Assembly (NCBI GenBank): GCA_018263505.1
Contig: JAANXA010000031.1
Location: 1-46,845, forward strand
Source of the DNA: Candidatus Nitrosopumilus sp.
GTDB lineage: Archaea > Thermoproteota > Nitrososphaeria > Nitrososphaerales > Nitrosopumilaceae
Reading direction: 5' to 3'
DNA: 46,845 bases
Shown: positions 8,018 to 32,119 of the stretch, one piece after another
Layout of the letters: each line of letters begins with the position of its first letter
Numbering within the stretch: position 1 is the first letter of the stretch
The notes under the pieces: generated by a model
The model's input: the letters and a program-made list of their open reading frames with translations, nothing else
The model's database searches: none
What the model was told of the DNA's origin: nothing
Translations under genes and position numbers: made by a program

Positions 8018-8668
8018 CTACTCAAAGGTTGAAGTAGAGGTTCCTGACGAAAGTCCAGTTGAAGATGGTACAGATGGGAATTTGTCACCAATCTGTTGCT
8101 CAGCTACTGCAGATGCTTCTTGTAGAATCTTTTCTGTTTCTTCACTTGAAACATCAGATTCCATATTAAATGAATCTCCTGCCAGTGAGTCCATCATAAG
8201 TCCATTAAGTGTCTGAGTCATGTTATTCAATTCTGAATCAGCTTCAGGCATAAATCGTCCAAGCGATGACTTCAATCCCTTCATTGTAGACATTGCAGGT
8301 CCAATTGCTACCATAGCATCACCAAGATCATGAATAGTTGTCAGTCTTAGTTGAACTTGTTCTAATGACATTCTTGCATTACCGAGCATCTTTGTAACTT
8401 TACGAATTTCAGCTAATTCGTTAGACAAAACTCTACTTGTGCTAGTATCATGTTGCTGCATTGCAGTCACGACTCTCTGAAAGAGTTGCGCATCTCTCTC
8501 ATGCAATTTTCCTAACATAGAGTCCATTTTTGATATTTGAACTTGTAGTTTGTTAACTGCTGTTTGAATTCGTGGTTTTAATGCACCTTGAGGTTTTACT
8601 GCATCACGTAGTTTGCCAGTTACACTTTGGGTCTCCTGTCGAGCCCATGTACTGTCGAAGTTTGGCAT
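8018..8668 (-). CDS. CdvB-like ESCRT-III/Snf7 family cell division protein (paralog 1)
   Basis: 216 aa helical; KPRIQTAVNKLQVQISKMDSMLGKLHERDAQLFQRVVTAMQQHDTSTSRVLSNELAEIRKVTKMLGNARMSLEQVQLRL; clear paralog of 31481..32119. Confidence 0.85.
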   Translation of the reverse strand: MPNFDSTWARQETQSVTGKLRDAVKPQGALKPRIQTAVNKLQVQISKMDSMLGKLHERDAQLFQRVVTAMQQHDTSTSRVLSNELAEIRKVTKMLGNARMSLEQVQLRLTTIHDLGDAMVAIGPAMSTMKGLKSSLGRFMPEADSELNNMTQTLNGLMMDSLAGDSFNMESDVSSEETEKILQEASAVAEQQIGDKFPSVPSSTGLSSGTSTSTFE

Positions 8669-8774
8669 GATATGGAATTTAGAAATTTAGTCTTAATTGA
8701 TGGTGTAAATTTAGATCAGTTTTAGGGTAAATTTAGCTAACAAACTATTATGGTTGATTTATTTTTCAAATATT

Positions 8775-9533
8775 GTGGCAAGAATTGCAATTTTTGATTC
8801 AGGATTAGGTTCATTATCAATAATAAAAGAAATTCAAAAAGTATGTAAAAATGAAATAATCTATTTCGCAGATCAAAAAAACTATCCATATGGGAAAAAA
8901 TCACAGATTCAATTGAGAAAAATAATGAGTAAATCTATTAATTTATTAAAAAAATTCTCTCCAGATCTTATAGTAATTGCATCAAATACACCAAGTCTGA
9001 TGTTAAATTTATCAACAAAAAATATTTTAGATGTTAAACCACCATTAATAGAAGCAATTAAAATTTCAAAATCTAATCAAGTTGGAATTCTTGGTACAGA
9101 ATCTGCAATTAAGAGTAAAGGGTTATCACAATATATTAAAAAAAGTAATTTGATGAAATCAATTAAAATTTTTAAAATTAATGGTTCTAATTTAGTGGAA
9201 TTAGTAGAATCTGGAAAATTTCTTACAGATAAAAAATTTTGTGAAAATGTAATTAAAAAAGAATTAGATATTTTATTAGAAGAATCAATTGATGTTGTAA
9301 CACTTTCCAGTACACATTTACCATTTCTAAAAAAAATTTTAGAAAAAGAATTTCCTAATATACAATTTATAGATCCAGGAAATATTGTTGCACAAAAAAT
9401 TCTTAAAAAAATTAAATTTAAACAATCAAATAGAAATTCATTAAAAATATTCACTTCTGGAAATTCTACCGATTTTCAAAACAAATTGATTAAAATTGGA
9501 ATAAAAAATAAAGTTAATTTTTTAACTTTTTAG
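8775..9533 (+). CDS. Glutamate racemase (MurI)/Asp-Glu racemase family-like protein with both catalytic Cys replaced by Ser
   Basis: MARIAIFDSGLGSLSIIKEI..IIYFADQKNYPYGKKS..ASNTPSL..GILGTESAIKS..LVELVESGKF..LSSTHLPFLKKILEKEFPNIQFIDPGNIVAQKI. ORF track starts at TTG 8754; the in-frame GTG at 8775 fits the family N-terminus better. Confidence 0.75.
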   Translation: MARIAIFDSGLGSLSIIKEIQKVCKNEIIYFADQKNYPYGKKSQIQLRKIMSKSINLLKKFSPDLIVIASNTPSLMLNLSTKNILDVKPPLIEAIKISKSNQVGILGTESAIKSKGLSQYIKKSNLMKSIKIFKINGSNLVELVESGKFLTDKKFCENVIKKELDILLEESIDVVTLSSTHLPFLKKILEKEFPNIQFIDPGNIVAQKILKKIKFKQSNRNSLKIFTSGNSTDFQNKLIKIGIKNKVNFLTF

Positions 9534-31480: not shown

Positions 31481-32119
31481 TTAAAGAAATTTTGTAGTTG
31501 TTTCTTGATTATTAGATGGTACAGAAGGAAACATTTGGTTTGTAGAACTTTCAGCTACTGCTGCTGCTTCTTTAAGAATATTTTCAGATTCAGCATTGGT
31601 AGTTTCATCCATTCCAAATGCAGCATCACCTGAAAAACTTTCTGTCATAAATCCACCAAGCATTTCTGCCATCTGTCCTATTTCTTGTTCTGCACCTGGC
31701 ATAACTTTTCCTAGAGATGATTTCAGATTTTTCATTAATCCCATTGTTGGCATGATAGCTACTACAGTATCTCCAAGATCACTAAATGTTCTTAATCTTA
31801 ATTCAATTTGTTCTAATGCAATTCTAGCACTACTCATTATTTTTGTGACTTTTCTAACTTCAGCTAATTCATTTCCTAAAACTTTGCTTGTATGGGTATC
31901 GTGATTTTGTGTTGCATCAACTATTCTTTGGAATAATTTTGCATCACGTTCTTTTAAACTAGAAAGTAATGTATCTAATTTCTTAATTTGTAATTGTAAT
32001 TTTTTTATTCCAGATTCAACTCTTGGTTTAAGAGCACCTTTAGGCTTGATTGTATCATTAATTTTATCAGAAATTCCTGGTTTTGTTTGTTTAATCCATT
32101 TATCATGAAGACTAGGCAT
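31481..32119 (-). CDS. CdvB-like ESCRT-III/Snf7 family protein (paralog 2)
   Basis: 212 aa; KPRVESGIKKLQLQIKKLDTLLSSLKERDAKLFQRIVDATQNHDTHTSKVLGNELAEVRKVTKIMSSARIALEQIELRL, alignable by eye with 8018..8668. Confidence 0.85.
   Translation of the reverse strand: MPSLHDKWIKQTKPGISDKINDTIKPKGALKPRVESGIKKLQLQIKKLDTLLSSLKERDAKLFQRIVDATQNHDTHTSKVLGNELAEVRKVTKIMSSARIALEQIELRLRTFSDLGDTVVAIMPTMGLMKNLKSSLGKVMPGAEQEIGQMAEMLGGFMTESFSGDAAFGMDETTNAESENILKEAAAVAESSTNQMFPSVPSNNQETTTKFL

Follow-up and report, generated by a model that had tools for sequence, protein, structure and literature searches.

Nearly all ammonia-oxidising archaea (AOA) carry a homologue of the glutamate racemase MurI in which serine replaces both catalytic cysteines. 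In MurI, these two cysteines take the proton off C-alpha and put a proton back. The copy described here lies in the window, the whole stretch of 46,845 nucleotides that was analysed from a Candidatus Nitrosopumilus sp. contig (Table 1). Ser/Ser is a fixed trait of the family and not a peculiarity of one genome. The best explanation, to which we give about an even chance, is that the protein belongs to a separate subfamily of the MurI fold, marked by Ser/Ser. This subfamily would have given up glutamate racemisation while keeping a functional active site that now serves another purpose.

Reading frame, homology and predicted fold

The reading frame opens at a GTG codon and runs intact to its stop codon, with the limits given in the earlier note made from the sequence alone. 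The GTG is the real start. Relatives show ATG, GTG or TTG at this column, and no consistent start lies upstream in any of them. A TTG at 8754 was therefore discarded as an upstream start.

The protein belongs to the Asp/Glu racemase superfamily. It matches the PF01177 profile (Asp_Glu_race), the alignment proposed in the earlier note, with 35.2 bits against a curated cut-off of 31. It is the one PF01177 gene found in the source genome. With the glutamate racemase model TIGR00067 (glut_race, EC 5.1.1.3) it scores 117.8 bits (E = 5e-34), below the equivalog cut-off of 146.65. The homology to MurI/RacE is full-length, and the best PDB sequence match is RacE from Bacillus subtilis (1zuw, E = 1.6e-21).

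An AlphaFold2 model from 23 input sequences (mean pLDDT 82.6, pTM 0.80) presents the two-domain racemase fold of this superfamily. In a PDB fold search with this model, glutamate racemases occupied the ranking from the top through about rank 48, and TM-scores of 0.8-0.87 were obtained with many MurI structures. The MurI-like fold read earlier from the sequence is thus confirmed by Pfam, TIGR00067, PDB and fold matches. Inspection of the pocket in a predicted structure had also been suggested. The model is weak precisely around the first motif (mean pLDDT 53 for residues 71-80), which makes the geometry of the pocket unreliable.

Residues of the active site

In the alignment with B. subtilis RacE, S70 and S179 fall exactly on Cys74 and Cys185. 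Both Cys-to-Ser readings of the earlier note are correct, and the protein lacks the two catalytic cysteines of MurI. These have not simply moved elsewhere: of the two cysteines that remain, C24 and C156, neither is in a motif and neither occupies an invariant column.

The columns of RacE D10, S11, D36, PYG, T76, E153, T186 and H187 are retained in the window protein. On the other hand, beyond the cysteines it differs from RacE by S13 for G15, L182 for Y188 and P73 for A77. S13, in the FDSGxGS motif, is a family mark. We define the subfamily signature here as Ser/Ser at both columns, GS for GG and STH[LI] for CTH[YF]. All of these are present in the window protein.

Table 1. Position of the Ser/Ser gene, its active-site residues and its divergent neighbour in the window.
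Feature	Position	Strand	Evidence
Ser/Ser MurI-like gene	8775..9533	+	252 aa, GTG start; Pfam, TIGR and PDB matches, AlphaFold2 model
D8-S9 of the FDSGxGS motif (RacE D10-S11)	8796..8801	+	Alignment with RacE, conservation
P38-Y39-G40 (RacE P41-Y42-G43), invariant	8886..8894	+	Alignment, conservation
S70 (TCA), first catalytic cysteine column (RacE Cys74)	8982..8984	+	Alignment; TCN in 97/97 sequences covering the column
E145 (RacE E153), invariant	9207..9209	+	Alignment, conservation
S179 (AGT), second catalytic cysteine column (RacE Cys185)	9309..9311	+	Alignment; AGY in 95/95 sequences covering the column
T180-H181 (RacE T186-H187), invariant	9312..9317	+	Alignment, conservation
CdvB-family (ESCRT-III-like) gene, divergent neighbour	8018..8668	-	Weak Snf7 match; association only
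Intergenic region between the divergent genes, 106 bp	8669..8774	.	Both promoters presumably here

Conservation and selection across AOA

The search covered 201 genomes of the order and detected the gene in 99 of them. Serine occupies both columns without exception, in the 98 sequences read and then in the 92 that are intact (89 distinct). Likewise, D8, S9, D33, P38, Y39, G40, T72, E145, T180 and H181 are invariant in the 92 intact AOA sequences (RacE D10, S11, D36, P41, Y42, G43, T76, E153, T186 and H187). Two positions of the MurI substrate site vary. They are N71 (RacE N75), which can be N, I or M, and A111 (RacE T121), which can be A, V, T, I, S or L.

The selection pressure was estimated on 91 pairs of Nitrosopumilus-group sequences. 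Their median dN/dS is 0.23, a rough value since dS is near 1. The earlier note had taken Ser/Ser kept across the lineage under purifying selection as the sign of a new function, and this is the pattern observed. It had also named two findings that would speak against the reading, namely catalytic cysteines elsewhere in the protein and orthologues with Cys/Cys. Neither appeared, and none of the AOA showed a Cys/Cys MurI.

A single step separates each of the codon classes TCN and AGY from the TGY cysteine codons, whereas two steps lie between TCN and AGY themselves. As the two classes never switch in their respective columns, each serine was preserved with no other residue as an intermediate. 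This codon usage indicates that serine was retained continuously at both columns from one origin, and the bacterial members described below show identical codon classes.

Distribution and loss

We compared the presence of the gene across these 201 genomes with that of the archaeal AmoA (PF12942). Both genes are present in 97, amoA only in 12, the Ser/Ser gene only in two and neither in 90. The two genomes with only the Ser/Ser gene are drafts from an AOA family. The distribution tracks amoA (Fisher p = 1e-40, which overstates independence since the genomes are related).

The gene is dispensable in some AOA, being absent, broken or frameshifted in several. Broken copies occur in G150, G168 and G153, and G129 has a frameshift near the C-terminus. 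G189 shows a clean loss, with CdvB and CbiF 212 bp apart and no gene between them.

Internal stops in the Nitrosotalea group were rejected as a sign of pseudogenes; they are normal stop codons that lie two residues short of the query end. Two genomes have additional material. G521 carries an intact-looking copy on contig C4, with a second match in fragments on C3; in Nitrosotalea sp. FS (L060), the copy is repeated and broken. Each could be a partial duplication or an assembly fault.

Bacterial relatives and phylogeny

Ser/Ser is also found in two bacterial proteins, WP_262291953.1 of Phyllobacterium zundukense and one encoded in Fusobacterium vincentii (NZ_CP084075.1, 733153-733923). They are 31-35% identical to the window protein and are annotated as Asp/Glu racemase only, or not at all. 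Like the AOA proteins, they have GS replacing GG and the LSSTHLP motif. However, they present FDAG and SNAPS where the AOA have FDSG and SNTPS, and T72 and T108 are lost as well. The Fusobacterium record also encodes a normal Cys/Cys MurI (ACNTAS, GCTHYP), so the Ser/Ser form is not that cell's racemase.

A tree was built without the motif columns. It splits 37 AOA and the two bacterial Ser/Ser proteins from 15 Cys/Cys MurI with a support of 100/99, which places the window protein outside the MurI clade. Inside the Ser/Ser side, the bacterial pair groups with deep AOA families with modest support (95/81), and transfer may have gone either way. The lineage framing of the earlier note has to be corrected on this point. 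The change did not arise within the source genome or within Nitrosopumilus: its age is at least that of the AOA, and bacteria have it too.

Outside the AOA, one genome of Thermoproteota (G337, family f55) encodes a Cys/Cys MurI (ACHTIS, GCTHYP) with 221 bits to TIGR00067, where transfer or contamination is possible. The search of viral contigs for homologues returned none. Phage records gave only MurI-like matches of at most 31% identity, and the one inspected was Cys/Cys. Several E. coli plasmids, one of them a virulence plasmid, bear a murI-like gene 29% identical to the window protein.

Gene neighbourhood

The earlier note placed the gene between a CdvB paralog and cobalamin methyltransferases, and both are there. 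Nevertheless, the corrin methyltransferase genes (CbiF, CbiL and CbiT) adjoin it in most Nitrosopumilaceae only, and they are a lineage-level feature. The divergent CdvB-family gene is older and more widely kept. Almost every Nitrosopumilaceae genome retains it, as do representatives of the deep AOA families f2 and f3, but most members of f8, a family with large genomes, have lost it.

We do not claim a link with cobalamin. The gene is convergent with CbiF in most Nitrosopumilaceae, but the arrangement varies elsewhere. In some g2 and Nitrosopumilus genomes another gene replaces the corrin genes; in f2 and f3 these lie on the far side of CdvB, and f8 has a different neighbourhood. The neighbours in Fusobacterium and Phyllobacterium are unlike each other, and the bacterial members have no CdvB. 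A convergent neighbour in Phyllobacterium, a serine/threonine dehydratase-like PLP enzyme, was discarded as a clue: it is below all cut-offs and not repeated in Fusobacterium. Neither the CdvB-family nor the corrin neighbours indicate the function.

The source genome has three CdvB-family genes. Two are in the window (the divergent neighbour and 31508-32119 on the minus strand) and share 52% identity, and contig C52 carries the third.

Possible functions of the Ser/Ser protein

Enzymes of the same superfamily illustrate the effect of replacing the cysteines. In OpaE, 4.8% of the activity is left in the C90S mutant and no more than 0.3% in C199S or in the double mutant (PMC12661438). One cysteine is replaced by threonine in EcL-DER and MMP0739, which can work in one direction (PMC8142540), and by glycine in arylmalonate decarboxylase, AMDase (PMC4996985). 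In these natural exceptions, the lost catalytic cysteine accompanies a changed direction or reaction. However, each of them keeps one cysteine, and none is Ser/Ser. Because the OpaE mutants are nearly inactive and the natural exceptions replace one cysteine only, efficient glutamate racemisation by the Ser/Ser protein is unlikely. The open-licence papers searched made no mention of a Ser/Ser change in MurI homologues.

The host also differs from those of MurI, being an archaeon without peptidoglycan. MurD had no match in the source genome, so no peptidoglycan use for D-glutamate is visible. The earlier note remarks that such archaea have no obvious need for MurI.

Under the preferred explanation, a subfamily with a working active site and another reaction, the pocket would still bind a small carboxylate or an amino-acid-like ligand, given the PYG, D8-S9-T72 and T180-H181 elements. 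The chemistry would do without two thiols as C-alpha acid/base pair, and might be an elimination, a hydrolysis, a decarboxylation or a one-base isomerisation. S70 with D8, and S179 with H181 and E145, may serve as hydrogen-bond donors or as a nucleophile. The latter residues would form a putative Ser-His-Glu arrangement. Against this explanation, most of the glutamate-contacting residues are still present, as they would be in a slow racemase; the weak model at the first motif and the absence of an intact gene from several AOA also count against it. We hold it a little short of an even chance that the Ser/Ser proteins are an enzyme family whose reaction is new for this fold, nearly universal in AOA and present in scattered bacteria.

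Three other explanations were weighed. The protein could be a ligand-binding pseudoenzyme. As a sensor or a regulatory subunit, it would bind glutamate, or an acid related to it, without converting it, perhaps in concert with the CdvB-family protein or another partner. Both base residues are gone while the ligand-contact residues stay, and most AOA lineages retain the divergent CdvB-family neighbour. However, this neighbour is lost in most of f8, and the bacterial members do without it in settings that differ between the two species. Dead enzymes usually lose active-site residues such as D8, E145 and H181. These acid/base helpers are absolutely invariant here, beyond the needs of pure binding, and this makes us favour a changed enzyme. 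The pseudoenzyme is thus a rather unlikely reading, though the most serious of the three. Whether the protein is a changed enzyme or a pseudoenzyme, the suggestion of the earlier note, a repurposed enzyme or ligand-binding protein rather than a racemase, gains support from the invariant Ser/Ser and the purifying selection.

An altered but genuine glutamate (or aspartate) racemase, with the serines as bases, seems improbable to us. It would account for the MurI homology, the fold, most substrate residues and the f8 members that exceed the NCBI equivalog cut-off, and the single Cys-to-Thr enzymes give it a precedent in one direction. Nevertheless, as a base at C-alpha, serine is much weaker than a cysteine thiolate, and the double Cys-to-Ser change almost abolishes OpaE activity. 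The substrate positions N71 and A111 vary in the AOA, and the bacterial members also lose T72 and T108. Least probable by far is a decaying gene or a sequencing artefact. The broken copies, the frameshift and the clean loss in G189 point in that direction, but the idea is refuted family-wide by the 92 intact Ser/Ser sequences from independent genomes, with low dN/dS and an invariant active site.

Implications for D-glutamate use by AOA

In the part of PMC12363236 available to us, the gene is reported as a glutamate racemase ubiquitous in AOA, and D-glutamate use is inferred from it. The basis given there is an AlphaFold model of GLUR_Nm (UniProt A9A551) superposed on 2GZM, described as having "the necessary catalytic active sites"; this is a superposition, with no assay described. 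GLUR_Nm almost surely belongs to the family of the window protein, because Nitrosopumilus genomes carry one TIGR00067 match each (broken copies aside), always of the Ser/Ser family. The AOA distribution agrees with ours. In contrast, the catalytic site is called intact in that text, whereas both cysteines are serine in all intact orthologues here. From these residues, the claim that the gene lets AOA use D-glutamate is probably wrong. The biogeochemical argument built on it, D-glutamate use by AOA in the deep sea, depends on a working glutamate racemase. An assay is needed before the claim is used, since no intact copy examined here has either of the two residues that perform the chemistry.

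If the protein is an enzyme, its clear two-residue signature marks an as yet unassigned function, nearly universal in an abundant group of organisms. Automatic annotation repeats the racemase error, as the curated glutamate racemase model accepts some Ser/Ser members. Six f8 relatives (G032, G022, G056, G049, G041 and G007) exceed the TIGR00067 cut-off with 152-166 bits although they too have Ser/Ser; passing it is therefore no evidence for the cysteines.
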